A stretch of 64,000 bases of DNA from positions 7,068,001 through 7,132,000 of the forward strand of contig NZ_CP015163.1 of NCBI RefSeq assembly GCF_003312875.1, written 5' to 3'. Made by a program: the position numbers and the translations under genes. The DNA is from Amycolatopsis albispora. Lineage in GTDB: Bacteria; Actinomycetota; Actinomycetes; Mycobacteriales; Pseudonocardiaceae. A model generated the notes under the pieces. That model saw only the letters and a program-made list of their open reading frames with translations, searched no databases and was not told where the DNA came from. Positions 5,043 to 37,557 of this stretch are shown here, piece by piece (position 1 is the stretch's first letter; each line of letters starts with the position of its first letter).

Positions 5043-6589
5043 CCCTGTTGCTAGTCCTCATCCTGCTGCCGCTGGCCGGGGCGATCGCGGTCACCGCGCT
5101 GCGCTCGAACGACCGGGTCGCCACGCTCACCGCGCTCGGCGTCTCGGTGGTCGAGCTGCTGCTGATCATCCCGCTGTGGCTCGGTTACGAGCCGCGCGGC
5201 GAGCGCATCCAGCAGGCGTCCTCGATGGACTGGATCCCGAACTTCGGCATCCACATCTCCTTCGGCATGGACGGCATCGCGCTGGTGATGATCGCGGTGA
5301 TCGCGTTGCTGGTGCCGCTGATCATCGGCGGCACCGCGGCCATCGACAAGCTGCCGAAGGGGCGCAGCGCGGGTGGCTACTTCGCGCTGATCCTGGTGCA
5401 GCAGTCGCTGACCATCGCGGTCTTCGCGGCCACCGACGTGTTCCTGTTCTACGTGCTGTTCGAGATCATGCTGATCCCGATGTACTTCCTGATCGGCGGC
5501 TACGGCGGCCCGAACCGGCAGTACGCGGCGGTCAAGTTCTTCCTGTACTCGTTCCTCGGCGGCCTGATCATGCTGGCCTCGGCGATCGGCGCCTACTCGA
5601 TGGCGTCGGACGAACTGGGCCAGGGCACCTTCGACTGGGCCACGCTGGTCTCGGTGGTGCGGGACGCGCCGACCGGTACGCAGATCTGGCTGTTCCTCGG
5701 CTTCTTCCTGGCCTTCGCGATCAAGGCGCCGCTGGTGCCGCTGCACACCTGGCTGCCGGACGCGGCCGGGCAGGCGCCGATCGGCGTGGCCGTGCTGCTG
5801 GTCGGCGTGCTGGACAAGGTCGGCACGTTCGGCTTCCTGCGCTACTGCATCCCGATGTTCCCCGACGCCAGCCAGGCGCTCGCGCCGCTGGTGCTCACCC
5901 TGGCCGTGGCCGGTGTGGTCTACGGCTCGATGCTGGCCGCCGGGCAGTCGGACATGAAGCGGTTCATCGCCTACGTGTCCATCGCCCACTTCGGCTTCAT
6001 CGCGCTGGGCATCTTCGCCTTCACCGAGCAGGCCCAGGTCGGCTCGGTGTCGTACATGCTCAACCACAGCCTGGCCACCGGCATGCTGATCCTGGTGATC
6101 GGCATGGTGATCGCCCGCGGCGGGTCCACCCGGATCGCCGACTACGGCGGCATGGCCAAGGTGACCCCGGTGCTCGGCGGGCTGTTCTTCATCGCCGGTC
6201 TGTCCACCCTGTCCCTGCCGGGGACGAACTCGTTCATCAGCGAGTTCCTGGTGCTGCTGGGGTCCTTCGACACCCGGCCGGTGTTCACCATCGTGGCCAC
6301 GCTGGGCCTGGTGCTCGCCGCGGCCTACGTGCTCTGGCTGTACCAGCGGATCTTCCAGGGGCCGGTGCGGGGTGACGCGCTGATCGGCGCCGGTGGTGGT
6401 CCCGGCACGGCGGTGGCGCCGGAGATCGGTGCTCGCAAGTCCATTCGCGACCTGTCCAAAGTGGAGATCGGCGTGCTGGCGCCGATGGTGGTGCTGATCA
6501 TCGGGCTGGGCTTCTACCCGAAGCCGGTCCTGGACACGATTACTCCTTCGGTGGAAGCCACGATGTCCGCCGTGCAGGAAGGCAACTGA
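5039..6589 (+). CDS. nuoM: NADH-quinone oxidoreductase subunit M
   Basis: This is the second antiporter-like proton-pumping subunit of complex I. The 516-residue product shows the [20 protein letters not shown] segment (about 137-156), with the conserved functional Glu, and [19 protein letters not shown] (about 229-247), with the conserved Lys. About fourteen hydrophobic helices can be read. It overlaps nuoL (ATGA) and nuoN (TGATG), so it is part of the same polycistronic unit. Confidence 0.96.
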
Positions 6590-8219: not shown

Positions 8220-9128
8220 TTATCGAAGCCAGTGGTACCCGAACCGGCAGCCGCCCTCGATACCCATTGCGCCCCAATGCTTGTTCAGCTCGGGCGTGTG
8301 CCGCGCCCGGTCGCGCGGCACGGTGTGGAGGTCCATCACCAGTGCCACCGGATCGCCGTGCTCGCCGGGTGCGTGGAGCGCGGTCAACCGGACCGGCTCG
8401 ATGTCGGTCCGGCGCAGCGACCAGACGGGCTGGTTGTTGCGCCTGCCGTTGATGGCCACCTCGGTGAGGTGGACCTGGTAGCCGCGGCGCAGCGAAACCT
8501 CCGCCGTGGTCAGGTCGGCGGCGTACGGCCGGGTCACCAGCCTGCCTTCGCGCAGCAGCTTCGCGACGAACTTCTCGCCGACGACGGGGTTGGCCTTGAT
8601 CCTGCGGGCCAGCCCGGGCACCATCCAGCTCGGCCACCGCCGCAGGCCCGCGTAGCAGAGCGCGAGCACGGGGAAGCCGATCGGGACGAGGACCCACACC
8701 TTGGCCCAGGTGAGTTCGCCCGTTTCGTGGTACCGGTGCAGGTCCTTGCCGATCTCTTCGACCGCCAGCGTCTTGCCGACGTCGGCCGGGGTGAAGACAC
8801 TGCTCAGCGTCTCCCGCGACCGCGGCTCCAGCGTGTGCCCGGCGTAGCCGTAGTCGACCGAGCAAGCCCAGTGGAAGCCGAAGCCCGCGTGGCTGATCGG
8901 GCCGTACTCCGAGCATTCCTTGACGTACGCGACCGTGCCGGTCTCCTCCACGGTGTACGCGGCGCCGCGCTGGAGGTGGAGATCCACGGTGCCCAGCGTC
9001 AGGGTGAGGAAGAACAGGACCGGGAGCGCGAGCCAGGAGAGCACGAACCGCAGCCAGCCGGCGAGCCGCTCCCGCGGTGTCTGCAACGCCGCGAGCCGGT
9101 GCGCCACGGAGCTGGTCGTGGTCGTCAC
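8220..9128 (-). CDS. Two-helix membrane protein of an ESX-associated paralogous family (copy C)
   Basis: The function is unknown. The 302-residue product has one hydrophobic segment near residues 25-50 and a second near 155-175. Between them is a conserved, probably extracytoplasmic part with RGAAYTVEETG, a YVKECSEYGPISHAGFGFHW-like motif with two cysteines, and FTPADVGKT. The C-terminal half ends with HWGAMGIEGG. Two paralogues in this window (10224-11213 and 14253-15266) share all these motifs, so this is one family; it may be the one catalogued as DUF6346, which I cannot confirm here. The ATG start overlaps the end of the upstream PH-like gene (ATGA). It is the last gene of the ESX-like block and faces nuoN across a terminator. 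Confidence 0.85.
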   Translation of the reverse strand: MTTTTSSVAHRLAALQTPRERLAGWLRFVLSWLALPVLFFLTLTLGTVDLHLQRGAAYTVEETGTVAYVKECSEYGPISHAGFGFHWACSVDYGYAGHTLEPRSRETLSSVFTPADVGKTLAVEEIGKDLHRYHETGELTWAKVWVLVPIGFPVLALCYAGLRRWPSWMVPGLARRIKANPVVGEKFVAKLLREGRLVTRPYAADLTTAEVSLRRGYQVHLTEVAINGRRNNQPVWSLRRTDIEPVRLTALHAPGEHGDPVALVMDLHTVPRDRARHTPELNKHWGAMGIEGGCRFGYHWLR

Positions 9129-10207
9129 CGCTCCACGCCTTCGGGATGGGCTTCCTCGTACGCGCCGGGGTGGTAGCGCTCGATGAAGCCACGCAGCTCC
9201 TGGAGCGCGCCGGCGCTGAACGTGCGGTCGAGGCGGTAGGTGCCGTCCGGCCGCAGCCAGTGCTTGCGCATTTCGGGGTGCCGCTGGGCGAACCGGTTGT
9301 CGCCGGGCACGATGTCGACGAGGTACTCGTCGCCCTCCGCGCTCGCGCGGAAGGTGCCGATCTCCGCCCAGGTGAGCTCGAACCCGCTCGCCAGCGGGTC
9401 GCGGCTCCAGTTGTCGCCCAGGAACGAGTTCCAGCGCACGCCGACCGCGCTGACCAGGAAACCGGCGAACTTGAGCGGGTTCTGCACCGTGCTGGTGGTG
9501 CGCACCGAGCCACCGGCGGGAAGGTCCACTGTGTACAGGAAGTACGGCCCGAACGGCCGGTCGCCCCAGTAGCTCTCGGTGCCGGGCGGGATTGGCCGCG
9601 GAATGAGTTTCTGTTGCGGGCCACCCTTTTCCGCGGGCGGCAACGCGGTGGCCCGCACCGGGCCGTCGTAGTGGACGCGAGCCCGTTCCTGGACGGCGTA
9701 CGCCTCGACCTCGGACAACTCGATCTCGGCGGTGTACACGTCACGCGCGCGCCTGCCCGCGCGGGCCTTGCGGAAGAACTCGGGCGGAACGGTCAACCGC
9801 AGTTCGTACCCGTAGGCCGGGTCCGTGAGGTATCGGGGCCGCAACCAGCGGCGCCGCAACTCGACCCGGCCGATCTCCGCCCACGGCAACGACCACCCAC
9901 CGGTCGGGAGCCAAACCAGCCGGATGCCCGCTGCGTCCACGTGCAGTCGCCAGCCGCCGGTGCCGCGAACGAGCCCCACCACGATCCGGGCGGCGCACCC
10001 GACCGTCGCCAGGCCGAACAGGATCGCCCACTTCAGGAACTCGGTGCTCCCGGTGTTGACGATGTACACGTTCCAACCGGTGGCATACACCAACACAGCC
10101 AGCGCGATGTACCACCGCTTGAGCCGCCGCCGCACGCCGCGATCGACGACCGGTGCCCCGGCGTCACTCATCAAGTGAGCCGGAGAGTGCTGGTCAGGGC
10201 TCGTCAC
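9125..10207 (-). CDS. Membrane protein with PH-like domains; start borrowed from a YbaB-like gene
   Basis: The predicted 360-residue protein has two hydrophobic helices near residues 28-75. After these comes a PH-like beta-rich domain (GWRLHVDAAGIRLVWLP followed by SLPWAEIGRVEL), and a second beta-rich part with FELTWAEIGTF and VDIVPGDNRFAQRHPEMRKHW. The latter motif recurs in the neighbour at 11210-12457 (EIVPGDDEFAKRHPEMQRLW), so the two are paralogues. The role is unknown. I chose the GTG at 10207 because GGGGGAGGT precedes it at ideal distance, while the internal ATG at 10171 has no ribosome-binding site. That GTG and its leader match the start region of the YbaB-like genes (VTSPDQ), see the findings. 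Confidence 0.75.
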   Translation of the reverse strand: MTSPDQHSPAHLMSDAGAPVVDRGVRRRLKRWYIALAVLVYATGWNVYIVNTGSTEFLKWAILFGLATVGCAARIVVGLVRGTGGWRLHVDAAGIRLVWLPTGGWSLPWAEIGRVELRRRWLRPRYLTDPAYGYELRLTVPPEFFRKARAGRRARDVYTAEIELSEVEAYAVQERARVHYDGPVRATALPPAEKGGPQQKLIPRPIPPGTESYWGDRPFGPYFLYTVDLPAGGSVRTTSTVQNPLKFAGFLVSAVGVRWNSFLGDNWSRDPLASGFELTWAEIGTFRASAEGDEYLVDIVPGDNRFAQRHPEMRKHWLRPDGTYRLDRTFSAGALQELRGFIERYHPGAYEEAHPEGVER

Positions 10208-10221
10208 GGCGAACCTCCCCC
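10190..10221 (-). repeat. Remnant of the YbaB-like gene start region (third copy)
   Basis: The roughly 32-base stretch covering the ribosome-binding site, the GTG start and codons for TSPDQ is almost identical to 14239-14270 and 17269-17300, where it begins full YbaB-like genes. Here similarity stops after codon 6 and the frame continues into the PH-like membrane gene. Confidence 0.75.
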
Positions 10222-10223
10222 GT

Positions 10224-11213
10224 TCAGCGGCTCGTTTCCTGACGGTTCGTGACCATCGAGTGGATCGCGGTGGCCTTTTCCTGGCTGAGGAAATACCCGA
10301 TCCGGGCTCCGCCTTGGATTCCCCAGGTGCCCCAGTGTTCCTTGAGTCCCGGTTCACGGGAAGCCCATTCCCTGGGGATCGTGTAGATGTCCATGACACG
10401 GGCGATGGGGTGCTCGCCAGTCCAGTCGTCGGCCCGGTGGAACGCGGTCAGTTCCACCTTCTCGACCTGTGCCCACCGCACCGACCAGACGGGTGCGTCG
10501 TGGCGCTTGTCGGCGATCCCGGACTTGGTGAGATAGATCCGGTGGCCGTCTCGCCCGGCTATTTCCACCGAGGAGGCGGGCTTCGGCGCGCGTGCAGGGG
10601 CATAACGCCGCGCCACGAGACGCCCTTGACGCAGGAGTTGCTCGATGAACCGGTCACCCACGGCCGGATTGGCCCTGATCCGGGCGGTCAGGCTCCCCTT
10701 CGCCCAGTCCGGCCATCGTCGCTTCGACAACGCGTAGATGAGCACGAAGATGACCAAGGCCAGAGGGAACACCAGCAACACGTGAGCCCAAGGGTACGGG
10801 TTGTCGTGGTGGTGGCGGTAGAAGTGCTTGCCGCTCTTCTTGACCGCGAAGGTCATTCCGATGTCGGCCGGGGTGAAGACACTCCTCAAGGTTTCTTTCC
10901 TCTCGGGTCTCACCGCGAGGCCGGTTCGCTTGTAATCGATCGAACAACTCCAGTGATAGCCGAAGCCGGCGTGGCTGATCGGTCCGTACTCGGCGCATTC
11001 CCTGACGTAGGCGGTCTCGCCGGTTTCGTCCACTGTGTACTCGGCGCCGCGTTGCAGCTGGTCGTCGAGGTGGAACAGCGTCAGCGTGCCGAAGAAGAGG
11101 ACCGGGATCGACAACCAGAACACGGCGCACTGGAGCCAGCCGACGAGCTTCTCCCGCGGGGTTTGCAACTGGGCGAGCAAGGACGCTTCGGGCTCGCCGG
11201 GTTTCCGCCTCAT
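10224..11213 (-). CDS. Two-helix membrane protein of an ESX-associated paralogous family (copy A)
   Basis: This 329-residue protein is a paralogue of 8220-9128 and 14253-15266. It shares RGAEYTVDETGETAYVRE, the two-cysteine motif with YGPISHAGFGYHW, SVFTPADIGMTFAVKK, and EHWGTWGIQGGARIGYFLS near the C-terminus. Hydrophobic helices lie near residues 25-50 and 160-185. The function is unknown; fold and context suggest a membrane component that accompanies the small secreted helical proteins of this block. The ATG overlaps the stop of the upstream PH-like gene (ATGA). Sixteen bases separate its stop from the next GTG start. Confidence 0.85.
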   Translation of the reverse strand: MRRKPGEPEASLLAQLQTPREKLVGWLQCAVFWLSIPVLFFGTLTLFHLDDQLQRGAEYTVDETGETAYVRECAEYGPISHAGFGYHWSCSIDYKRTGLAVRPERKETLRSVFTPADIGMTFAVKKSGKHFYRHHHDNPYPWAHVLLVFPLALVIFVLIYALSKRRWPDWAKGSLTARIRANPAVGDRFIEQLLRQGRLVARRYAPARAPKPASSVEIAGRDGHRIYLTKSGIADKRHDAPVWSVRWAQVEKVELTAFHRADDWTGEHPIARVMDIYTIPREWASREPGLKEHWGTWGIQGGARIGYFLSQEKATAIHSMVTNRQETSR

Positions 11214-12457
11214 GACCGTCCACTTCCAGTCAGGTTGTGGTCCCGCAGCACTCCAGGCCGGCGCAGTCCGGCCGCACCCGCCAGGCGGCGCGCCGCCTTG
11301 GCCGCGAACTCGGTCTGCAACCGGTACGCCCCGGTGGCCGGCGGCACTGCCTCACCCAGCTGCAGGCCCGCCTCCCAGAGGCGTTGCATTTCCGGATGGC
11401 GCTTCGCGAACTCGTCGTCGCCGGGCACGATCTCCACCGTGCGCACGGTGGAGCCGTCCACGACGTGGGTGGTTACCTGGATGGCGCTCACCTCGGCCCA
11501 GCGGAGTTCGAACCGGTACGGGACCTGGGGCTCGCGGTACTTCGTCGGCTTGTAGTACTTCCAGAGCAGTCCGGTCGCGGTGATCCGCAACTCGGGAGCC
11601 CGCCTGCGCCGCGCGCGCCACTCGCTGTCCAGCAGGCTGACCCAGCCGGGGATGGTGACACCACCGATGACGACGCCCAAGAAGGTGAAGAAGAGCGCGG
11701 TGCTCTCGGCGATCTCCCGGAACGTCCCCATCGCGACCACCGCGGCGAGCGCGGTCCACCCCATGACGGTGGCGAACACCCGCTTGACCCGCGGGTTCGG
11801 CCTCGTCGCGTAGACCGTGCCGAGCGGCGTCGACAGGCCCGCCGGGAAGACGACAACCTGGCGGCGGTCCGGGGCCTCGGCAGGTGGCGGCGGGACGGCC
11901 CTGACCACCTCGCCGCGGACGGTGGGCGGGACCTGGCTGGCGACGACCGGGACCCCGAGCCGATCGCGGGCGAACTCCTGGATCCGCCACGCCTCCGCCT
12001 CGGTGAACCGGTCCGGGGTGGTCTGCACCAAGCCGCGGGTGGTGCTGGTCAGCCCGGGCTGCTTTCCCGGTTCGGCCCCGGGGTGGAGCCTGATCCTGAG
12101 TTCGTACGCGTAGACCGGAAGATCGTGGTGGTCGTCGGCCTGCCTGCTCCGGCGCAGGACCAGGCGTTCGATGTCGGCCAGGGCGATCCGCCACCCGGAA
12201 CCGTCGGACGCGCGGAGTTCGACGGCCTGGTCGCCGAGCAGGAGAGTGCGTTTCCGGGTCTTGCGGTTGAGCATCCAGCCGAGCAGCAGCAGGCCGAGAA
12301 TGGCGAGGAAACCGCCCAGGTACATGCTGTCGTGGCCGAGGTCGTCCCTGATCGTGAGAACGCCGAGCCAGCCGCCGACAACCGTCAGCGCGACAGCCGC
12401 GGCCCATCGGCGCCGAGTGAACTTCTCGGTTTTGCCGATGACCAGCCGCTCAGTCAA
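11210..12457 (-). CDS. Membrane protein with PH-like domains
   Basis: The 415-residue product has an N-terminal pair of hydrophobic helices (about residues 17-65), then a PH-like segment (LLGDQAVELRASDGSGWRI, LADIERLVLRR). A second hydrophobic pair lies near 232-275, followed by another beta-rich part that ends with IVPGDDEFAKRHPEMQRLW. It resembles the protein encoded at 9125-10207, which lacks the second helix pair. No enzymatic motif is visible. The start overlaps the end of the large WXG100-like gene by eight bases, so it is read as part of the same operon. Confidence 0.8.
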   Translation of the reverse strand: MTERLVIGKTEKFTRRRWAAAVALTVVGGWLGVLTIRDDLGHDSMYLGGFLAILGLLLLGWMLNRKTRKRTLLLGDQAVELRASDGSGWRIALADIERLVLRRSRQADDHHDLPVYAYELRIRLHPGAEPGKQPGLTSTTRGLVQTTPDRFTEAEAWRIQEFARDRLGVPVVASQVPPTVRGEVVRAVPPPPAEAPDRRQVVVFPAGLSTPLGTVYATRPNPRVKRVFATVMGWTALAAVVAMGTFREIAESTALFFTFLGVVIGGVTIPGWVSLLDSEWRARRRRAPELRITATGLLWKYYKPTKYREPQVPYRFELRWAEVSAIQVTTHVVDGSTVRTVEIVPGDDEFAKRHPEMQRLWEAGLQLGEAVPPATGAYRLQTEFAAKAARRLAGAAGLRRPGVLRDHNLTGSGRS

Positions 12458-13490
12458 TTCTCCCCGTCCAGGTCTGGGTGGTCTCCGGATTGCTCACCGG
12501 GAACACCCTGGTCATCTTCTCGTCGTGCTCGCGCTTTTCCAGCGTTTCCCCGGACGCCGCCTGGTCGTTGTGCTCGGTGCTGCCGGTGATCCCGGCGGTG
12601 ATGCCCTTGCCCTGCTCGCCGAAGACCTTCTTGCCGCTTTCCTTGAAGCCTTCGAGGCCGACCCGCTCAGCGAGTTTCCTGCCGCCGAAGATGTCGCCGC
12701 TTTCGGCGGCGAAGGTCTTCCCCGCCTCCCGCATGCGGAGGCCGATTTGGGTGAGCTGGTCCACGAACCGCTGCCACACCCGCATGAGCTTCTGCAGCAG
12801 GCTGACGCCCTCCTGGGTCTTGGACACGACCACGGGCATGCCTTCGGCAGCCAGCGCCGCGGGGTAGGCGGGCGGAGGAGTCCTGGCGAAGATGTAGATC
12901 AACTTGGCGCAGACGTCCGTGATCAGGTCGCGGATCAGGTTCCGCACCACGCCGAGCACCGTTTTTGCCACGTCGATCAGGCCGGCGCCCGATTTCGCGT
13001 CGTCGGAGAGCTGAACCAGGGCGTCCAGCCGGCGCTGGATGTACTCGCGGTAGCGGTCGACGGAGGCTCCGCTCCAGGTCGCGCAGTCCTCCCGCACGGT
13101 CTTGTTGAGTTCTTCGGCGGTGGTCTGCACCTGCTTGCTGACCTGCGACCAGGTCTGGATGGTCAGATCGAGCTCGTCCTGGTTCCCGGTGAGCTGGTCC
13201 AGCCAGTCCTTCATCGGGGAGAGGTGCTCGATGACCCAGCCGAGGCCCATGCTGATCAGGACCTCGGCCGGGTTGTCCCCACTCGCCTTCTTCACGCTGA
13301 AGTCCAGGCCGGCCGCGGCCAGGCTGAGCAGCCCTTCGGTCCAGTCACCCTTGATCAGCTGCTCAACGCCGCCGACCGTGTCCTGGAGCAGGCCTGAGCC
13401 CTGCAGCGCGCTCTTGACCGGGGTTTTGCCCGCCTCGGTTTCCGCCTTGGCGGCGGTGATGATCGAGTTTTCTCCCTGCGGCTGCCCCAT
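12450..13490 (-). CDS. Large WXG100-like (ESX substrate-type) protein, copy A
   Basis: The 346-residue, mostly helical product carries a central WXG100-like helical hairpin. One helix contains LDLTIQTWSQVSKQVQTTAE, and a turn with W-S-G (TWSG, about residue 140) precedes RYREYIQRRLDAL. This resembles the N-terminal domains of large type VII substrates. No toxin or enzyme domain follows; the C-terminus is charged and probably flexible. The gene at 15270-16418 is a clear paralogue (shared GEWTEGLL-like, SMGFGWVIEHLSP-like and RTPPPGY-like motifs). The ATG overlaps the stop of the EspC-like gene by one base (TGATG), a pairing typical of an ESX partner set. Secretion and function are inferred. 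Confidence 0.8.
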   Translation of the reverse strand: MGQPQGENSIITAAKAETEAGKTPVKSALQGSGLLQDTVGGVEQLIKGDWTEGLLSLAAAGLDFSVKKASGDNPAEVLISMGLGWVIEHLSPMKDWLDQLTGNQDELDLTIQTWSQVSKQVQTTAEELNKTVREDCATWSGASVDRYREYIQRRLDALVQLSDDAKSGAGLIDVAKTVLGVVRNLIRDLITDVCAKLIYIFARTPPPAYPAALAAEGMPVVVSKTQEGVSLLQKLMRVWQRFVDQLTQIGLRMREAGKTFAAESGDIFGGRKLAERVGLEGFKESGKKVFGEQGKGITAGITGSTEHNDQAASGETLEKREHDEKMTRVFPVSNPETTQTWTGRID

Positions 13491-13813
13491 CACTCGCCTG
13501 CCTTCTTGAGCAGTGCGCCGATGCTGTCTTCGTCGACGCGCTTGACCTCGGCCCACTTGCGAACCAGGTCGACGTGGTGCTGGCTGGATTCGGTGGCGGC
13601 CTGCAGGGTGGCACGGAGCTCTTCCAAGGAGCTGTTGCAGCACGAGGCCACCAGTGCGCCGAGCTTGCCGAACGCTTCTTCGCCCATGCGCTGGTTGGCG
13701 GCGTCCAGCGCGGTGTCCAGCTGGGCCTGCACCTCGCCCACTCGCCTGGCGTGGGCGTCGATCTCGTCCGGGTCGGCGTTGAAGCCCTGGTCCCCGCCCA
13801 CCGGGCCGCTCAT
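13490..13813 (-). CDS. EspC-like small helical protein, copy A
   Basis: The 107-residue, cysteine-poor protein is almost wholly helical (PDEIDAHARRVGEVQAQLDTALDAANQ), as in the EspC/WXG100-type family of ESX-associated secreted partners; the WXG motif itself is absent. It lies between the YbaB-like gene (ATGA overlap) and the large WXG100-like protein (TGATG overlap). Its paralogue at 16415-16726 has the same position in the neighbouring module. A role as heterodimer partner or co-secreted protein is inferred from family and context. Confidence 0.75.
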   Translation of the reverse strand: MSGPVGGDQGFNADPDEIDAHARRVGEVQAQLDTALDAANQRMGEEAFGKLGALVASCCNSSLEELRATLQAATESSQHHVDLVRKWAEVKRVDEDSIGALLKKAGE

Positions 13814-14256
13814 CGGCGGTCGCCTTCGTCGGTGAGGAAGTCGTTGCCGGAGAAGTAGTCGTCGTCGGGGGCGGTGCCGTAGCCGCCTCCGCCTTCGATG
13901 TAGTCGTCGGGTTCTGGTTCGGGGTAGGCGGCGTTGAGTTGTTCGATCAGTTCGGCCATGGTTTCGGTGCCTGCGATCGAGGGGACGCCGCCTTGCATTG
14001 CTTCGGCGAGTTTGCTTTGCGCGGTTTGCATGGTGCGCATGATCTGCTGGTCGAGGTCGGCCTTGGTGCGGGCGATGGGGCCGATTTCCAGGCCGGTGAG
14101 GTTGCCGGCGTGGTTGACGGTGACCTTGATCTGTCCGTCCTTGCTGCGTTCGCTGACCGAGATCTGCTCGATTTCCGCGCGCATCTGTTCGGCTTTGCGC
14201 TGGGTTTCGGCGAGTTTGGCTTCGAAGTCAGCGAAGAGCTGGTCAGGGCTCGTCAC
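13810..14256 (-). CDS. YbaB/EbfC-like protein, copy A
   Basis: The 148-residue product begins VTSPDQLFADFEAKLAETQRKAEQ, a coiled-coil helix, followed by a small beta part (VTVNHAGNLTGLEIG) and a second helix, the plan of the YbaB/EbfC family (nucleoid-associated in other bacteria). Such proteins are common next to ESX-type substrate genes in actinomycetes, where their role is unclear. The tail is acidic. The GTG start has GGGGGAGGT upstream and overlaps the preceding gene by GTGA. From base 13873 to the start it differs by one base from the copy at 16903-17286; the second copy has an extra Pro-rich insert of about 39 residues. Confidence 0.85.
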   Translation of the reverse strand: MTSPDQLFADFEAKLAETQRKAEQMRAEIEQISVSERSKDGQIKVTVNHAGNLTGLEIGPIARTKADLDQQIMRTMQTAQSKLAEAMQGGVPSIAGTETMAELIEQLNAAYPEPEPDDYIEGGGGYGTAPDDDYFSGNDFLTDEGDRR

Positions 14257-14275
14257 GGGCGAACCTCCCCCTGTT
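13873..14275. repeat. Near-identical direct repeat, copy A (pairs with 16903-17305)
   Basis: Read base by base, this segment matches the segment 3030 bp downstream; within the coding part I find one mismatch (14203 versus 17233). It covers most of the YbaB-like gene, its start and its ribosome-binding site. A second identical stretch, 13810-13868 versus 16723-16781, covers the 3' end of the same genes. Confidence 0.9.
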
Positions 14276-15266
14276 GCTTCTTCGCGTTGATGGCCGTGTA
14301 GGCCGCGACGGTGGTGTTGATGGCCAGCGCCTTCTCCCGGCTGAGGAAGTACTCGAACCGCGCGCCGCCCTGGATTCCCATTGCGCCCCAGTGCTTCTTG
14401 AGCCCCGGTTCGACCGAAGCCCACTCCCTGGGAATGGTGTAGATGTCTATGACCCTGGCGATGGGGTACTCGCCGTCCTTGTCGTCGGGCCGGTAGAACG
14501 CGGTCAGCTCGACCTTCTCGAGCTGCACCCACTTCAGCGTCCAGGTGTGCACTTTCTTTCTGTACTTCGCCGAATGGTAATGCGTGATCCCGATCTTGCC
14601 GAACTTGACGGAGTTCCCGTGCTGCCGGTTCAGTTCCACGGTCGCGGCCGCTTCGGGGTAGTAGCCGGGGTTGTAGGGCCGAGCTTCGAGTCGTCCTTGA
14701 CGCATCAGCTTTTCGACGAACTTGCGTCCGACGTGAGGGTTCAACTTGATGCCCAGCGCTAGGCTGCCCACCGCCCAGCGCATGAGTCCCCAATACTGAC
14801 CGGTGGCGATCAAGGCCACTATCGCGAACGGGAACACGCTATGAAGAGACGCCCAGTTGAACCGGTCCACCTCGTGATAGCGCTCGAGGAACTTGCCGAT
14901 CTTCTTGACCGCGAAGGTCTTTCCGATGTCGGCCGGGGTGAAGATGCTGCTCCTGGTTTTTTGACTGAAAGGCTTCAGTTTTCCACCCGGGGCACCGTAG
15001 TCGACCGAACACTCCCAATGGAAACCGAAGCCGGCGTGGCTGAACGGCCCGTACTGGTTGCATTCCTTGACGTAGGCGACGCGGTCGGTTTCCTCGACGG
15101 TGTAAGCAGCGCCGCGCTTGTTCAGCTGGTCGGCGTGCATGACGGTCAAGCCAAGGAAGAAAATTCCCGGAATCGACAGCCAGAACACCACGAACCGGAG
15201 CAGACCGCCGAGCTTCTCCAGCAGGGTCTGCTCTTGGGCCAGTCTCCTCAGTACCGAGACGTGCAT
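14253..15266 (-). CDS. Two-helix membrane protein of an ESX-associated paralogous family (copy B)
   Basis: This 337-residue paralogue of 10224-11213 and 8220-9128 has hydrophobic helices near residues 20-45 and 155-180. It shares RGAAYTVEET, the two-cysteine motif with YGPFSHAGFGFHW, FTPADIGKTFAVKK, KLMRQGRLEARPY, and HWGAMGIQGGARFEYFLS. The ATG start lies three bases after the stop of the large WXG100-like gene, and the stop overlaps the GTG of the YbaB-like gene. The function is unknown. Recurrence of this gene once per module shows it is a fixed partner of the ESX-like substrates here. Confidence 0.85.
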   Translation of the reverse strand: MHVSVLRRLAQEQTLLEKLGGLLRFVVFWLSIPGIFFLGLTVMHADQLNKRGAAYTVEETDRVAYVKECNQYGPFSHAGFGFHWECSVDYGAPGGKLKPFSQKTRSSIFTPADIGKTFAVKKIGKFLERYHEVDRFNWASLHSVFPFAIVALIATGQYWGLMRWAVGSLALGIKLNPHVGRKFVEKLMRQGRLEARPYNPGYYPEAAATVELNRQHGNSVKFGKIGITHYHSAKYRKKVHTWTLKWVQLEKVELTAFYRPDDKDGEYPIARVIDIYTIPREWASVEPGLKKHWGAMGIQGGARFEYFLSREKALAINTTVAAYTAINAKKQQGEVRP

Positions 15267-15269
15267 GGC

Positions 15270-16418
15270 TCAGTCGATCGATCCGCTGATCGTGTTGTCA
15301 CCCTTGGTCTGGAACGGCATGACCGGTTGCGCCGCCGCGGGTTCTTCGGGCACGTCGTACTCGGGCCGGGTGTCGTAGATGTGGGTCTTCTGCTGGTCGC
15401 TCTGCTGCTTGGCGTCCGACTCACTCCAGCGAGCCTGCTTGTCTGCTTCGGTTCTGCCTTCCGAAGTTTGGCTCTTTACGTAGTTGCCGCCAGCGCTTTT
15501 GGTTGCTTCCTTGCCGATTTCCGTCCCCACGCGTTTGGGCAGGTTCAGCAGTTGCTCGTTGAAGGCCTGGGTGGTCGCGTTCTTGAGCACGCTGCCGTAC
15601 GCGCCGCCCTCCTTGCCCAGGTTCGTCATCAGCCTGCCGAGCCCGCCGAGCCGGCCCATCAGGTCGGAAAGCAGCTTCTGCAGGTTCTGGAACGCTTTGA
15701 CCAGGCGCTGGGTCCACGACATGGCCTTCGTCGACTGCTGCGCGACGGTCGGCGCCACCTCGGTGGCGACCGCGACGGCATACCCCGGCGGCGGGGTGCG
15801 GCAAAGGATCATCATCACCTTGGCCGCGGTGTCGGCGAGGATGCCGCGGATGATGTCGCGGACCACCTTCAGGATCGACTTGCTGATCTCCACCGCGGTG
15901 GCCACGGTGCGGGCCGAGTCGGAAAGGGCACGCAGGATGTCGACGCGCTGCTGCGCGTACTTCCGGTACTGCTCCGCGGCGACGCCCCACCAGGTGGCGC
16001 TGTCCTCCATCACCTTGGCGGTGAAGTGCTCGGCGGCCGCCTGCACCCCGTCGGAAACCTTGCTCCACGCGTTCACGGCCAGGCTCAGCTGGTCCTGGTT
16101 GCCGACGAACCAGTCGAGCAGGTCCTTCAACGGCGACAGGTGCTCGATGACCCAGCCGAATCCCATGCTGAGCAGCGACTCGACGGGGTTTTTGAGGTAG
16201 CCCGCACCATCGACGACGGCGCCGACCGCGACGTCGAGCAGGCCCTCGGTCCACTCCCCGTTCGTGCATTTTGTGTAGCCGTCGGCGATGTCCTGGATCA
16301 GGCCCGCGCCCTCGAAATCAGGCGCGCCGTCCCATAACCGGGTCTTGTTCTTCTCGATGTCCTCCTGGGCTCCGGCGAGAAGATCCTTCTGGGTCATCGG
16401 CTGGTGCTCTTCGGTCAC
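15270..16418 (-). CDS. Large WXG100-like (ESX substrate-type) protein, copy B
   Basis: The 382-residue helical product is a paralogue of 12450-13490: both have GxWTEGLL near residue 55, a GFGWVIEHLSPLKDLLDW-like segment, and a WXG100-like hairpin with a W-W-G turn (ATWWG, about residue 143) followed by QYRKYAQQRVDIL. The C-terminal part diverges and ends in a charged, disordered-looking tail, with no visible catalytic domain. The start overlaps the stop of the EspC-like gene by four bases. It is probably an ESX-type secreted or surface protein; this is inferred. Confidence 0.8.
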   Translation of the reverse strand: MTEEHQPMTQKDLLAGAQEDIEKNKTRLWDGAPDFEGAGLIQDIADGYTKCTNGEWTEGLLDVAVGAVVDGAGYLKNPVESLLSMGFGWVIEHLSPLKDLLDWFVGNQDQLSLAVNAWSKVSDGVQAAAEHFTAKVMEDSATWWGVAAEQYRKYAQQRVDILRALSDSARTVATAVEISKSILKVVRDIIRGILADTAAKVMMILCRTPPPGYAVAVATEVAPTVAQQSTKAMSWTQRLVKAFQNLQKLLSDLMGRLGGLGRLMTNLGKEGGAYGSVLKNATTQAFNEQLLNLPKRVGTEIGKEATKSAGGNYVKSQTSEGRTEADKQARWSESDAKQQSDQQKTHIYDTRPEYDVPEEPAAAQPVMPFQTKGDNTISGSID

Positions 16419-16726
16419 TTCCGCTCCTCGATGGTGGCGAAGAGCGCCTTGATCGACTCCTCGTTGTCATCGGTGCGCTCGGCCCAGGTCTGCACCTTCT
16501 GCAGGTGATCGTTGGTGGTGTCCGCCGCGGTACGCAGCTGGGTCGTCGTCTCGTCGATGAAGTTGGCGCAGATCATCGCGAGCGGCCGGCCGATCATGCC
16601 GAAGGCGTCCGGGTCGGTCACCTGGGTGACCGCGCCGAGTGCGGCTGACAGCTCGTGCTGCAGGTTCTGGATGTTCTTGGCGTGGTGCCGCAGCTCCTCC
16701 GGGTCGGCTTCGATGTCCCGGCTCAT
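16415..16726 (-). CDS. EspC-like small helical protein, copy B
   Basis: The product has 103 residues in two long helices (ADPEELRHHAKNIQNLQHEL and IDETTTQLRTAADTTNDHLQ), without a WXG motif, like the EspC-type partners of ESX systems. It sits between the YbaB-like gene (16723, ATGA overlap) and the large WXG100-like gene (16418, ATGA overlap). It is the positional equivalent of 13490-13813, but the two have diverged far more than the YbaB-like genes next to them. Confidence 0.75.
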   Translation of the reverse strand: MSRDIEADPEELRHHAKNIQNLQHELSAALGAVTQVTDPDAFGMIGRPLAMICANFIDETTTQLRTAADTTNDHLQKVQTWAERTDDNEESIKALFATIEERK

Positions 16727-17286
16727 CGGCGGTCGCCTTCGTCGGTGAGGAAGTCGTTGCCGGAGAAGTAGTCGTCGTCGTGGGGGTCTTCGGTGGAGCG
16801 GGCGGGGCGGGGTCGTCGTTCTGGTGTGGGGGCCGGGGGTGGTGGCGGGGGTGCTGGGGTGTCGGTTTCGGCGATGAAGCGGTGGTCGTCGTCGGCTGGG
16901 GTGGTGCCGTAGCCGCCTCCGCCTTCGATGTAGTCGTCGGGTTCTGGTTCGGGGTAGGCGGCGTTGAGTTGTTCGATCAGTTCGGCCATGGTTTCGGTGC
17001 CTGCGATCGAGGGGACGCCGCCTTGCATTGCTTCGGCGAGTTTGCTTTGCGCGGTTTGCATGGTGCGCATGATCTGCTGGTCGAGGTCGGCCTTGGTGCG
17101 GGCGATGGGGCCGATTTCCAGGCCGGTGAGGTTGCCGGCGTGGTTGACGGTGACCTTGATCTGTCCGTCCTTGCTGCGTTCGCTGACCGAGATCTGCTCG
17201 ATTTCCGCGCGCATCTGTTCGGCTTTGCGCTGCGTTTCGGCGAGTTTGGCTTCGAAGTCAGCGAAGAGCTGGTCAGGGCTCGTCAC
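16723..17286 (-). CDS. YbaB/EbfC-like protein, copy B, with Pro-rich insert
   Basis: The 187-residue product has the same N-terminal coiled coil and YbaB-like core as 13810-14256. It carries an extra segment of about 39 residues rich in Pro, Asp and Arg before the shared acidic C-terminus (YFSGNDFLTDEGDRR). An ATG lies 33 bases upstream in frame (17319), but the GTG at 17286 has the GGGAGGT site and matches the start of copy A, so I take it as the start. It is the first gene of the tandem module array after the EspG-PPE unit. Confidence 0.85.
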   Translation of the reverse strand: MTSPDQLFADFEAKLAETQRKAEQMRAEIEQISVSERSKDGQIKVTVNHAGNLTGLEIGPIARTKADLDQQIMRTMQTAQSKLAEAMQGGVPSIAGTETMAELIEQLNAAYPEPEPDDYIEGGGGYGTTPADDDHRFIAETDTPAPPPPPPAPTPERRPRPARSTEDPHDDDYFSGNDFLTDEGDRR

Positions 17287-17352: not shown

Positions 17353-18105
17353 TCAGTGCGCGCTTGCGCCCAACGAGGCGACCTTTTCGCTCAGCCGGGA
17401 ACGGTCACCGGGCAGCACGACGATGTGCTCGTTGCCGCGCGGGCCGCCGCTGGCCAGGCCGACGCGACCGGCGTCGAGGTCGAGATAGCTGAGCCCGGAC
17501 GGTGCCTGGTGCCGATCACCGCGGTAGTCCCGCCTCGCCGCGTGCAGCAGACCGGAACCGTAGTGCGGCACGGAGAAGATTTCGTCCAGCTCCTTGGCTT
17601 CCGGGCTTCGCGAACGCTTCTCGTCGTAGATCCCCTGAACGCCGTTGGCCTCCGCCATTTCGTGCCTGGGCACGGTGAACGGCGTGAAACTGGCGGCGGG
17701 AAAGCTAGGCAGGTGGTCCACCAGCAGCGTCGCCGCGTCCTTGCCGCGGTACGGCTTGAGCCACACCCGCTCGTCCTGGTGCACCGCCACCACGGCGGTC
17801 CGGTCGTGGCCGGCGACGAGGATTTCGTAGCTTTCGTCCCGGGTGCGGACGTGCGCGAAATACTCGATCGGCGGGCGGTTGAGCAGGTGCAGCGTGTCCT
17901 CGAAATCGCCGGTGAGGCGGTTGCCCGCGGCGAATCCGAGGTCACGCAGCTCGTCCATCGCGGCCTTTTCCAGCCCGGTTGACGCGGACGGCGGAATGTA
18001 GCGTTCGCCACCCGCGAAAACCAGGTGCGGGTGGTCGTAGCCGGTCCACCGCATGGCGGTGAGCAAGGTGTTCAGCGATATTTCGGTGCGGTGCCCGATA
18101 ACCAC
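17353..18105 (-). CDS. EspG-family ESX secretion-associated protein
   Basis: EspG proteins are cytoplasmic chaperones that bind the tip of PPE proteins and keep them soluble until type VII export. The 250-residue product fits the family in length. It shows the typical opening of a short strand-rich part, followed by AAMDELRDLGF, and motifs such as YFAHVRTRDESYEILVAGHDRTAVVAV and the Gly-rich end DAGRVGLASGGPRG. It lies two bases after the stop of the PPE-like gene, the partner expected for an EspG. Which ESX machine it serves cannot be told, since no ecc gene is present in the window. Confidence 0.8.
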   Translation of the reverse strand: MVIGHRTEISLNTLLTAMRWTGYDHPHLVFAGGERYIPPSASTGLEKAAMDELRDLGFAAGNRLTGDFEDTLHLLNRPPIEYFAHVRTRDESYEILVAGHDRTAVVAVHQDERVWLKPYRGKDAATLLVDHLPSFPAASFTPFTVPRHEMAEANGVQGIYDEKRSRSPEAKELDEIFSVPHYGSGLLHAARRDYRGDRHQAPSGLSYLDLDAGRVGLASGGPRGNEHIVVLPGDRSRLSEKVASLGASAH

Positions 18106-18107
18106 GA

Positions 18108-19400
18108 TCAGTCGGGCTTTCTCGTCTCACCGATGACCGGCGGCACCGGCTTCTCCCGATCGCCGCCGAACAGCACGTCCGGGTCGGGGCCGAGCAGGTA
18201 GTCGGGGCGCTGGTGCTCCTTGTCCTCCTCGCCGCGGTTGGCGCCGGGCGCGGCACCGCCCATCGGTGCGCCGCCGGGGGCGCCGGGCCGTCCGGTGGCA
18301 CCGGCCGCACCACCGCGCGCGGCGACGCCCTCGACGGGCATGCCGCCGCCGACCATCCGGCCAGGTCCGGCCGGGTTGCCTGGCACCGCAGGGCGTCCGG
18401 GGCCGCCGGCCACCGGCCCGGGTGCGCCGGGTTTGCCGGGCTGTCCACCCGTGCCTACGCCCGGTTGGCCACCGGGGCCGATGCGACCGGTACCGCCGCC
18501 GACGCGGCCGGTGCCACCCGGTTGCCCGTTCGCGCCAGGGCCGAAGTTCGTGTTGAACGCGCCGACCGGCGTGGGCACGCCGGGATTGGTCGGCCCGCTC
18601 GGCGGCAGGTACGGCGTCGTGGGCGGCATCTTGGGCGTGGTGGGCGGGTTGTAGGCGGCCGCCTTTGTGTTGTCGGTGGGATTCGGCGCGGGCGGCGTGC
18701 CCTGGGCGGGCACGTTGGGCTGGCCGGCGTTCGGCTGACTGCCGTTCGGCTGGCCCGTGTTCGGCTGCCCGCCACCGATCGGGTGCGGCTGACCGCCGCC
18801 GACTCCGCCGGTCGGGCCGTTCGGCTGGCCACCCCCGGGAGGCGCGTTCTTTTCGCCTCCGGCTTCGGCCAGCGACACGGACGCGCCGGGATCGACCAGC
18901 GGGGTGAAGGAACTCGGCATGGTGTCGCCGTTGCCCATGCTCGTCGCGTGGTAACCGGCGAAGGCGTCGATGTTCTGCTGGCTTTTCGCCTGCCAATCAC
19001 CGACTTTGTCGTTGTAGCTGTTCCAGTTGCCGGTGGTGATCGCCTCGAAAACATCGGCCGAGGTCAGCTCGGGCTTGTTCGGCGGCACGGGCACCACGCT
19101 GTTCTTCACCGTGCCGAAGGCGGACGTCTGGTCCTCCAGCGCGGAGCCAGCCTTGGCGAGCAAACTCGCGTCCTCGAGGGAGGCCTTCGCCAGCGGCAGG
19201 GCGGCGTTGGCCGCGTTGTTCCCGGCTTCCCCGGTCCAGCCCGCCTGGATCTTGGACGCCAGATTCGCGATCTGCTGCGCCCGCTCGGACAGGTTCGACG
19301 TCAGGCTGACCGAACTCTCCTGGGCCGCCACCAGCCAGTTCGTGCCCGGGCCGCCGTTGATCTGTTCGTAGATCTGAGAGGCGTTAAGAGGGCCGTTCAT
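18108..19400 (-). CDS. PPE-like ESX substrate with Gly/Pro-rich C-terminus
   Basis: The 430-residue product starts with a helical domain of about 175 residues, with IYEQINGGPGTNWLVAAQ and a W-T-G turn (AGWTGEAGNNAANAAL, about residues 54-69), as in the helical hairpin of PPE/WXG100 proteins. From about residue 190 it is low-complexity, rich in Pro, Gly, Asn and Gln with many GQPN- and GG-type repeats, and probably disordered. It ends in a charged tail. It is flanked by its likely chaperone gene (EspG family) and a DUF3558 lipoprotein gene whose stop it overlaps by one base. An exported surface or wall protein is the likely role (inferred). Confidence 0.8.
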   Translation of the reverse strand: MNGPLNASQIYEQINGGPGTNWLVAAQESSVSLTSNLSERAQQIANLASKIQAGWTGEAGNNAANAALPLAKASLEDASLLAKAGSALEDQTSAFGTVKNSVVPVPPNKPELTSADVFEAITTGNWNSYNDKVGDWQAKSQQNIDAFAGYHATSMGNGDTMPSSFTPLVDPGASVSLAEAGGEKNAPPGGGQPNGPTGGVGGGQPHPIGGGQPNTGQPNGSQPNAGQPNVPAQGTPPAPNPTDNTKAAAYNPPTTPKMPPTTPYLPPSGPTNPGVPTPVGAFNTNFGPGANGQPGGTGRVGGGTGRIGPGGQPGVGTGGQPGKPGAPGPVAGGPGRPAVPGNPAGPGRMVGGGMPVEGVAARGGAAGATGRPGAPGGAPMGGAAPGANRGEEDKEHQRPDYLLGPDPDVLFGGDREKPVPPVIGETRKPD

Positions 19401-20035
19401 CAGTTACCCCCTTGGAGATTGCCAACAACCATGTCCAGCACATCATGCGTGGCCTCACACGGGTCCTTCTTGCCGATGTTCTTGTCCGAAAGGGTGACGG
19501 TGGCGTCCATGGTCGACCTGTCCGTGATGCCGATCGAAACACCGCAACGTCCCTGCGTTTTCGTGTCGTCGACCTGGCCCCAGGCCACCGCCGGAAGGCC
19601 CCGCACCGGTGGCATCTCCTTGAAGAACTGGAACTGCTGGCCCTTGCCCCGGTACAGCGCGGTGAGCCCGAGGTCGTTCACCGTCGGGAAGCCGACCGCG
19701 ATGAAGGCGCCTTCCGAGCCGTAGCTGTGCCACGAGCACGCCGGTCCGGTGACGTTCTCTTCCTTTTCGGTGGTGTCCGAGCCCAGCAGTTCGGTGACCT
19801 GAGCGTCGGTGAGGGCCGTGCACGGGCGCTGGACGAGGTCGCCGACTTCGAGCGGGTTGTCCACCTTCGGTGCCCCGTAGGCGGGGACGTCCGATTCGCC
19901 CGCGGACGGTGAGGGTTCACTCGCGCTCGCGGCGGGCAGCGCGGGCGTGCCCGGCACGTCCTTGCCTTCGCAGCCGCTGGCCAGCAACAACAGGCCTGCT
20001 GCCAACGGCAGCACGCGCTTGACTGGTCGACGCAT
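19400..20035 (-). CDS. DUF3558-family lipoprotein
   Basis: The 211-residue product has a signal peptide with a lipobox-like end (LLLLASGC, Cys at about 22), then a low-complexity linker and a globular domain with PCTALTDAQVTELLG, CSWHSYG and MPPVRGLPAVAWG. These are hallmarks of DUF3558 lipoproteins, which abound in mycobacteria and Pseudonocardiaceae. The function is unknown; it is anchored outside the membrane. It starts right after the stop of the TTG-started gene, whose last codons hold its ribosome-binding site. Two further paralogues lie at 36892 and 37558 with the same neighbour. Confidence 0.9.
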   Translation of the reverse strand: MRRPVKRVLPLAAGLLLLASGCEGKDVPGTPALPAASASEPSPSAGESDVPAYGAPKVDNPLEVGDLVQRPCTALTDAQVTELLGSDTTEKEENVTGPACSWHSYGSEGAFIAVGFPTVNDLGLTALYRGKGQQFQFFKEMPPVRGLPAVAWGQVDDTKTQGRCGVSIGITDRSTMDATVTLSDKNIGKKDPCEATHDVLDMVVGNLQGGN

Positions 20036-20470
20036 CTAGAGCGAGCCTCCTTGCTTGCCGATCTCGGCCCCCGCGTCCGCTTCGGCCTCGGCGTAGTGGC
20101 CGGCGGCGGCGCGGAACTTCTTGGCTTGGGCGTGGCAGTAGTCGATCCGCTCTTGCAACGTGGACCGCAGTGTTTGCCCCGACTGGCGGACGAGCTGGGC
20201 GTTGTCGCCCGACGCGTACTCGGCACCTGGCCCCTCGACCGTGCAGAGCTGGTCGGCGTAGCGGATGTCCCGCTCGTAGCCCGCCGCGAGGTCGTCCCAT
20301 TCTCGGGCGATGGAGATGAGTTCGTCCGGTTCGAACGAGTAGCCGCCTGCTGGTGCGGCGGCGGCTTCGCCTGCCGCGGCCGCCCAGGCGCTTATCTCGT
20401 CCAGCCAGCTGCCACCGCCGCCCCCGCGCGGAGGCGGGGTGTACTGCGGTGACTGGTCGGGCGTGGTCAA
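20036..20470 (-). CDS. Helical ESX-associated protein with TTG start
   Basis: The function is unknown. The 144-residue product has a Gly/Pro-rich start (TTPDQSPQYTPPP) and a helical part with GGYSFEPDELISIAREWDDL, VEGPGAEYASGDNA and a closing helix that ends GKQGGSL. It resembles small ESX-associated helical proteins. Its paralogue at 36463-36891 shares all these motifs and also precedes a DUF3558 gene. I chose TTG at 20470 because GGGGAGGGGA lies just upstream and the paralogue has the same TTG plus TTPD start. An in-frame ATG at 20518 lacks such a site. Confidence 0.75.
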   Translation of the reverse strand: MTTPDQSPQYTPPPRGGGGGSWLDEISAWAAAAGEAAAAPAGGYSFEPDELISIAREWDDLAAGYERDIRYADQLCTVEGPGAEYASGDNAQLVRQSGQTLRSTLQERIDYCHAQAKKFRAAAGHYAEAEADAGAEIGKQGGSL

Positions 20471-20714
20471 AGGTCCCCTCCCCAAGGGCCGTTTGCTCCG
20501 GCGACAGCGCGTCGTCACGGAGGCACACGCAGTTCGCTACGCACCGAAGCTAGCACGCCACCCACCCCCTTGTTCAACGTTCACTCGGACCCGCGTCACC
20601 CGTGGTTTGTCGTGTTCGTCACCTGTGGCGAGTAGCAGGAGCCCACCGGCGGTAGCAGCACAGCCATTAGGCTTGGGTGAACCCGTGACCCAGTGCTGAG
20701 AGGGCGGAGCCGAA

Positions 20715-36360: not shown

Positions 36361-36462
36361 TCAGCTGAACGGCGGACAAGCCCGGGCGGCGGCGTGTAAG
36401 TTACGTACGGCGTTCGGATGGTGACCCGTCGGTCGCCGATGGCCTCGGGGGAGGAGACCAGC

Positions 36463-36891
36463 TTGACCACGCCCGACACCCCACCCGGAAGCGGCGGCTT
36501 CCTGGACCAACTGGGCGACGCGGTTGGAGACCTGGGTAAACTGGCACATGCCACCGGCAGTTCCGCGGGGGCGCCTTCGGGTGGCTACTCGTTCGAACCC
36601 GATCAACTGAACGAAATCGCCCGAGAGTGGGATGACCTGGCGGAGGCCTACACGGGGGACATATTGCTAGCCGAGCGGCTCGCGCGGGTGGAGGGGCCTG
36701 GTGCCGAATACGCATCGGGGGACAACGCCCTGTGCGTACGTCAATCGGGGGAAGCGCTCCTGTCCGCGCTGTGGAGCCGGATCGAATACTGCCGGTCCCA
36801 GGCCGAGAAGTTTCGCGCGGCCGCCGGGCAATACGCCGAGGCCGAAGCCAGTGCCGGTGACCAGATCGGCAACCAAGGAGGTTCGCTCTAG
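36463..36891 (+). CDS. Helical ESX-associated protein with TTG start (second copy)
   Basis: The 142-residue product is a paralogue of 20036-20470: TTPD at the start, GGYSFEPDQLNEIAREWDDLAEAY, VEGPGAEYASGDNA, and a final helix that ends NQGGSL. The function is unknown. GGGGAGGAGACC precedes the TTG at 36463, and TTG plus TTPD is conserved in the paralogue. ATG codons at 36439 and 36418 are in frame but badly placed. The last codons contain AAGGAGG, which serves the next gene. The gene and its DUF3558 neighbours interrupt the EPS cluster. Confidence 0.75.
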   Translation: MTTPDTPPGSGGFLDQLGDAVGDLGKLAHATGSSAGAPSGGYSFEPDQLNEIAREWDDLAEAYTGDILLAERLARVEGPGAEYASGDNALCVRQSGEALLSALWSRIEYCRSQAEKFRAAAGQYAEAEASAGDQIGNQGGSL

Positions 36892-37527: not shown

Positions 37528-37557
37528 CGAACCGGTAAGCGAGGGGGTTCGCTGTAG

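Follow-up and report, generated by a model that had tools for sequence, protein, structure and literature searches.

In mycobacteria, substrates of the ESX-1 type VII secretion system (T7SS) are encoded in the sets EspA-EspC-EspD and EspE-EspF-EspG1-EspH. In the portions of two reports available to us, the YbaB-like proteins EspD, EspH and EspL are described as stabilising ESX-1 substrates of the EspA/EspC and EspE/EspF types and are proposed to be chaperones (PMC6107294, PMC6319747). For the T7SSb of Staphylococcus, the available portions of two further reports describe TspA/TsaI and EsaD/EsaG, where a substrate is accompanied by a string of non-identical immunity paralogues, TsaI being a membrane protein, and these strings are polymorphic between strains and partly shaped by recombination (PMC7456083, PMC9484751), with little recombination among tsaI genes (PMC9484751). 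Here we examine an array in Amycolatopsis albispora where a YbaB-like gene, a small EspC-like gene, a gene for a larger WXG100/PPE-like protein (W) and genes for DUF6346 (M) or PH-like (P) membrane proteins recur in tandem. The array lies in a stretch of 64,000 nt (the window) covering bases 7068001–7132000 of the 9.12 Mb single-contig genome. Our leading explanation, to which we give an even chance, is that these are T7SS substrate cassettes recombining at YbaB, the membrane partners of which would serve in cognate immunity or self-recognition.

The array forms part of a close run of 15 minus-strand genes that adjoins the nuo operon and extends from a PE-like gene (20518) down to position 8220, in the order PE-like, DUF3558, PPE, EspG, YbaB1-EspC1-W1-M1, YbaB2-EspC2-W2-P2-M2, P3-M3. 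An initial annotation of this DNA had the gene order, coordinates and paralogy right: all the frames are open on the minus strand, several with starts internal to longer frames, and the Pfam families agree. The tight overlaps that it described are of 4 or 8 nt, save that W1 and M1 are separated by 3 nt and M2 and P3 by 16 nt. The array features are as follows, with E values for the Pfam matches.

16723-17286, minus strand: YbaB1, YbaB/EbfC-like protein, putative T7SS chaperone and constant anchor of round 1 (PF02575, 1.2e-12)
16415-16726, minus strand: EspC1, EspC/WXG100-like small helical protein (PF10824, 2.2e-5; 25.3 bits against a cut-off of 23.5)
15270-16418, minus strand: W1, large WXG100/PPE-like all-helical protein with a short tail (WXG100_2, 6.3e-5, below cut-off)
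14253-15266, minus strand: M1, DUF6346 two-helix membrane protein (PF19873, 1.2e-12; 48.1 bits against 25; family alignment)
13810-14256, minus strand: YbaB2, near-identical to YbaB1 but with part of the C-terminal linker deleted in frame (PF02575, 6.5e-13)
13490-13813, minus strand: EspC2 (PF10824, 0.0059; 17.5 bits, below the 23.5 cut-off)
12450-13493, minus strand: W2 (PPE, 1.1e-3, below cut-off)
11210-12457, minus strand: P2, PH-like membrane protein (no Pfam match above cut-off)
10224-11213, minus strand: M2, DUF6346 protein with a PH/PTB-like C-terminal domain (PF19873, 1.7e-15; 57.3 bits against 25)
10189-10220, minus strand: YbaB 5' stump, ribosome-binding site (RBS) with the first codons, joined in frame to P3 (matches the YbaB1/YbaB2 leader)
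9125-10207, minus strand: P3, orphan PH-like membrane protein
8220-9128, minus strand: M3, orphan DUF6346 membrane protein with a shortened C-terminus (PF19873, 1.3e-16; 60.9 bits against 25; alignment)

YbaB1 and YbaB2 are 99.3% identical in amino acid sequence, with a synonymous divergence (dS) of 0.02, whereas their operon neighbours show dS values of 0.6–0.9 and identities of 33.7% (EspC1/2), 39.4% (W1/2), 27.9% (P2/3) and 51–55% (M1/M2/M3). On alignment, the DNA block common to the two YbaB copies corresponds exactly to the YbaB gene, from the RBS to the YbaB stop and EspC start. The YbaB-like start ascribed to the third round proved to be real: 32 nt before P3, from the RBS to codon 6, are those found before YbaB1 and YbaB2 save for a 1-nt length difference, and they are fused in frame to P3, the native start of which was probably at 10171. 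Among 80 genomes of the genus searched, the closest relatives of M3 are M1 and M2 (51–53%) and the next is at 27%.

The site adjacent to nuoN was compared in 20 of these 80 genomes, picked mainly by nuoN similarity, and the counts therefore give no rate. Besides the window, four of the 20 loci fetched carry a cassette (L179, L180, L181 and L182); the remainder hold only EspG-PPE-DUF3558-PE genes or no recognised gene, and in three of them a single YbaB or EspC match lies on the opposite strand. At L179 the order of the window is reversed, with YbaB followed by cassette 2 (EspC 79%, W 79% and P 56% identical) and then by cassette 1 (EspC and W both 80%). At the junction, a diverged YbaB 3' end is fused to P2', before EspC1' (one in 2000 random windows of L179 scores as high); with the YbaB 5' end that precedes P3 in the window, this makes two stumps of opposite kind. 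L180 carries cassette 2 only. L181 has one different complete cassette, with a W 46% identical to W2 and 41% to W1, and the P that follows its YbaB-EspC-W set is 71% identical to P3 of the window; the more distant L182 has a W 49% identical to W2 and an M 25–28% identical to M1–M3. Since P3 matches the L181 partner, and no W close to that of L181 is found in the A. albispora genome itself (the best match, at 49%, is W2), the third round is best read, on sequence similarity, as a putative partner remnant of such a cassette, M3 having no match of this sort. Near-identical YbaB genes, breakpoints at gene borders, reversed order in a relative and orphan partners together point to the accumulation of alternative cassettes. 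Separately, at the nuoN-side end of the array in both L179 and L180, at about 1.7–3.6 kb in the nuoN orientation, lies a pair of genes that by their sequence alone resemble those of a sigma factor and an anti-sigma factor.

At a second locus, a ribokinase/phosphotransferase system (PTS) site so named from sequence, EspC-W-membrane alleles are exchanged between close Amycolatopsis species at the border of YbaB and EspC; nine named Amycolatopsis loci and L085 were classified there. Another ten Amycolatopsis loci, the flanks of which are less similar (ribokinase 69–77% where found), were compared and kept outside the classes. Taking L099 of A. thailandensis as reference, the flanking proteins are 91–97% identical where measured (not at L104, the stretch of which ends before the flanks) and YbaB is 84–95% identical, with EspC at 32–54% and W at 33–54% in classes 2 and 3. 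Class 1 comprises L085, L099, L100, L101 and L115 (W 87–96% identical among the four compared), class 2a L103 and L104 (83%), class 2b L132 (64–65% to 2a) and class 3 L113 and L117 (80%), while identity between classes 1, 2 and 3 is 34–58%. A W of genome G085, of the same genus, is 95% identical to that of L099. When L099 DNA was compared with L103, L132, L113 and L117, identity was 95–98% in the last YbaB window, following a dip to 72–77% in the linker, and past the YbaB stop it was 58–80% over the next 60 nt and then 40–67%; in the same-class control, L099 against L100, it stayed at 80–95% across the border.

At L104, in A. azurea, a class 2a W is followed by membrane genes matching the partners of several classes. 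One is 58% identical to the class 2a partner of L103 and another shares 86% identity with the L117 partner of class 3, while a 148-residue piece is 70% identical to L103 and a further gene 69% to another gene of the L117 array. Moreover, a single frame of 937 residues (13392-16202) unites three membrane partners that are separate genes in relatives, its parts being 75–78% identical to two class 2b genes and 75–90% to five class 1 partners. Searched against the genome carrying L104, the completeness of which is unstated, a class 1 W query found the genome's own W (59%) as the sole close match, with nine others at 23–29%, and a class 3 W query again found only its own W (41%) as a close match, with nine others at 27–36%. 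A class 2b W would have shown in the class 1 query, as it is 54% identical to class 1. Non-identical partner genes matching other alleles occur both in the string here and, as P3, in the window, and neither genome has a close matching W elsewhere. Another locus, L111 of Amycolatopsis antarctica (10168-15737), carries three DUF6346 paralogues, 53–61% identical, in tandem behind one W.

The four-family unit of YbaB-like, EspC-like and W proteins with a DUF6346 and/or PH-like partner recurs across the Pseudonocardiaceae and in some Micromonosporaceae. Within the family, 44 of 100 genomes have DUF6346 (41 above the Pfam cut-off; 27 of 46 genera), as against only one of 119 genomes taken phylum-wide, that of A. 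albispora itself. The proposal in the initial annotation that the four families act as one unit withstood tabulation of neighbours: of 59 DUF6346 genes, drawn from 54 loci of which the window is one, 44 are accompanied within 4 kb by co-directional YbaB, EspC and W genes, four lie with W, with YbaB present or absent, and 11 with none of these. Hidden Markov models in the neighbour analysis were built from the same loci that they scanned. Among 80 named W loci, the best of 165, YbaB is present at 79, EspC at 77, both at 76 and DUF6346 at 41, downstream at 26 and upstream at 15, which yields two gene orders, YbaB-EspC-W-M and M-YbaB-EspC-W. A co-directional neighbour with at least two predicted membrane helices accompanies 65 of the 80; downstream neighbours alone give 49 of 80, compared with 42 of 327 for background genes. 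Among the named loci with DUF6346 are those of Amycolatopsis, Lentzea, Saccharothrix, Actinophytocola, Paractinoplanes, Winogradskya and Mangrovihabitans, the last three being Micromonosporaceae. The A. albispora genome holds EccB, FtsK-type (EccC-like) and EccD genes elsewhere. At L012 of the same genome, a YbaB-EspC-W set precedes a 336-residue protein (5317-6327) with no Pfam family, possibly a further type of partner.

Intact W proteins have about 290–440 residues and a short tail. W143 and G145 of W1, in a WxG turn, are conserved in a 20-row alignment; G145 falls outside the near-invariant columns of a 48-row alignment, and a crude search found WxG in 52 of 83. Among the W proteins scanned, WXG100_2 exceeds its cut-off only in that of L050. 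The AlphaFold2 (AF2) model of W1 is all-helical, with a predicted local distance difference test score (pLDDT) of 72, and its structure matches were weak, none with E <0.001, chemoreceptor and BAR-domain helices coming first and PPE proteins further down (probabilities of 0.90 and 0.84, at E of about 1). PF18879, the EspA/EspE family, matched W1 at 0.047 and two other W proteins at 0.0095 and 0.061, all below cut-off, with W2 unlisted; at such values (0.01–0.06) W was rejected as a close EspA homologue. The AF2 model of M2 (pLDDT 80) has two long helices, taken to span the membrane with a presumed sidedness, a beta domain between them in which two cysteines are conserved across the family, and a PH/PTB-like domain at the C-terminus. 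No structure in the search with M2 matched at E <0.001: the lowest E, 0.026, came from a FERM protein at a probability of 0.08, while PTB/FERM domains were the best supported, though weak, with probabilities of up to 0.97 at E of about 0.08. Frames at L099-type loci match both the DUF6346 model and P2, which may point to a common origin for P and the C-terminal domain of M; direct profile comparison of the two gave a probability of only 7.7%.

The locus may be viewed as a stack of interchangeable ESX substrate cassettes. YbaB would be the constant part, acting, by analogy with EspD, EspH and EspL of ESX-1, as a cytosolic chaperone for EspC and W, while its DNA would provide the homology for recombination. 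EspC and W are the putative exported helical pair, and the DUF6346 or PH-like genes beside W would encode allele-specific partners that travel with it. New cassettes would enter at YbaB with older ones persisting behind, and the latter may lose EspC and W while retaining the membrane partner. Partners kept without their W suggest immunity or self-recognition, such that the membrane protein might guard against, or recognise, the W of neighbouring strains; the envelope would be the site at which W acts. In the way that alleles are swapped and partners left over, the cassettes resemble bacterial toxin-immunity genes, although toxicity of W is putative. We hold more tentatively a specific form of this scheme, namely that T7SSa-dependent strain recognition or antagonism is at work, with naked W as an envelope effector, DUF6346/PH proteins as allele-specific immunity and YbaB as both chaperone and recombination anchor, via which whole cassettes would be taken up, change their order and shrink to arrays of orphan immunity genes.

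Several observations weigh against an immunity role and against export of a toxic W. The W1' copy of L179 has no M1-like gene and the P2' partner in L180 is truncated, and it would be odd for a toxin to lack intact immunity. No toxin domain was recognised in the seven short W proteins scanned, and the YxxxD/E export motif, matched in 45 of 91 EspC domains of named loci, is found in neither EspC copy of the window. The match of the W1 profile to EsxA (E 0.0012), which would speak for a T7SS targeting domain, ranks below two designed helical proteins and possibly arose through helix bias. Within class 1, the higher omega of the membrane gene (0.23, against 0.08–0.11 for YbaB, EspC, W and the two genes at the flanks) counts in favour of the leading explanation, but all values are <1 and dN/dS gave no positive selection. 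By a crude test, 15 of the best 80 W loci lack an adjacent gene with at least two membrane helices, although three of them (L102, L124 and L171) have a DUF6346 match, that at L171 on the other strand. Among the matches listed (at least 150), 38 of 88 W frames shorter than 600 residues have DUF6346 at a distance of no more than 3 kb, as against none of the 62 longer ones, for which reason DUF6346 was rejected as immunity to toxin-length W. Finally, the leftover partners could be passive debris.

A number of these points would be expected if the unit were an EspACD-like envelope factor, in which a YbaB-chaperoned EspC-W pair is exported as a structural component or effector, with the DUF6346/PH protein as membrane dock or assembly partner; its alleles would diversify under pressure from phages, predators or competitors, and orphans would be left over from allele replacement. 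The composition fits EspD/H-EspC/F-EspA/E, with its YbaB-like proposed chaperone, and the lack of a toxin domain, the unpartnered W genes of L179 and L180 and the absence of DUF6346 from toxin-length W all accord with it. However, A. azurea keeps membrane genes matching the partners of three other alleles alongside one close W, which is unexpected for docks, and in both the window and L104 it is W that is absent and the partners that stay. Because the orphan partners match alleles of relatives, as in the tsaI and esaG strings of T7SSb, we rank immunity or self-recognition first and the dock second, the latter being possible but doubtful. A history in which a single ESX-like module was duplicated in tandem and then diverged and decayed, as the initial annotation favoured, accounts for the order and paralogy first described and for the proximity of M3 to M1 and M2. 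It is nevertheless improbable, and in its plain form was rejected, given the disparity in dS between YbaB and its neighbours, the reversed order in L179, the orphan partners and the match of P3 to the partner of a different cassette; the sharp YbaB borders are also hard to reconcile with it, save by gene conversion confined to YbaB, which would amount to recombination at YbaB anyway. From that annotation the conserved unit is supported and the duplication and decay history is not. That YbaB is a nucleoid-type DNA-binding regulator within a cytosolic or regulatory set that has nothing to do with export is very improbable: PF02575 is named as a DNA-binding family and EspL loss lowers whiB6 expression, but the neighbours are EspC/WXG100-like with EspG-PPE-PE upstream, chaperone roles are proposed for the YbaB-like Esp proteins, and a direct effect of EspL on espE, espF and espH transcription was ruled out (PMC6107294, PMC6319747, available portions).

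The genes upstream of the array, within the same run, are the following.

17353-18105, minus strand: EspG-family T7SS chaperone (PF14011, 1.2e-44)
18108-19400, minus strand: PPE-like protein (PF00823, 1.4e-7)
19400-20035, minus strand: DUF3558 lipoprotein-like protein (PF12079, 2.9e-26)
20036-20518, minus strand: PE-like protein (PF00934, 0.0014, below cut-off)

Paralogues of the 19400-20518 genes occur on the plus strand of the window at 36418-38151, where a second PE-like gene lies with two DUF3558-like genes; other genes, not PPE or EspG, follow from 38231.

The results provide DUF6346 with a firm set of genomic partners and link the mycobacterial YbaB-like ESX chaperones to a wide module family in other actinobacteria. 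They also raise the testable possibility that T7SSa substrates, like those of T7SSb, have a role in competition or recognition between strains; the natural allele pairs and orphan partners are suited to cross-protection tests. A literature search found no paper on DUF6346 and, judged by titles and abstract openings, no description of the DUF6346/PH partner or of the cassette behaviour. YbaB is not mentioned in the available portion of a 2012 survey of polymorphic toxins (PMC3482391).

Polymorphic RHS/WXG toxins of actinobacteria share the N-terminal W domain, which heads frames of >1000 residues in 46 of 150 W matches listed from A. albispora and related genomes. In A. albispora it heads seven frames of about 1490–1760 residues, e.g., L005 8992-13830, and the one long W frame scanned is an RHS-repeat protein with its own YbaB ahead. 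The W of the cassettes, in contrast, is naked, and DUF6346 is linked, among the matches listed, only to W of <600 residues. With TspA/TsaI and EsaD/EsaG of Staphylococcus, the cassettes share a (putative) T7SS substrate with a string of non-identical partner paralogues. They differ in their actinobacterial T7SSa setting and in a W without a recognisable toxin domain, for which killing is at most a putative activity; here, moreover, the recombination anchor is the upstream YbaB, and whole substrate cassettes are stacked rather than immunity genes alone. The closest likeness in composition is to the two ESX-1 sets of mycobacteria, which in the available text also combine a small EspC-family protein, a larger helical partner and a YbaB-like chaperone with EspG nearby, and the view that no described system has such a composition was therefore too strong, since EspD/EspH with EspC/EspF and EspA/EspE were already described for ESX-1 (PMC6107294, PMC6319747). 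Relative to ESX-1, W of the cassettes is closer to WXG100_2/PPE than to EspA/EspE, the DUF6346/PH membrane partners are additional, none being mentioned in the available portions of those two reports, and the cassettes are swapped and stacked. The YbaB/EspC/W composition has a precedent in ESX-1, whereas the titles and abstract openings listed in the literature search gave none for the membrane partners or for the behaviour of the cassettes.

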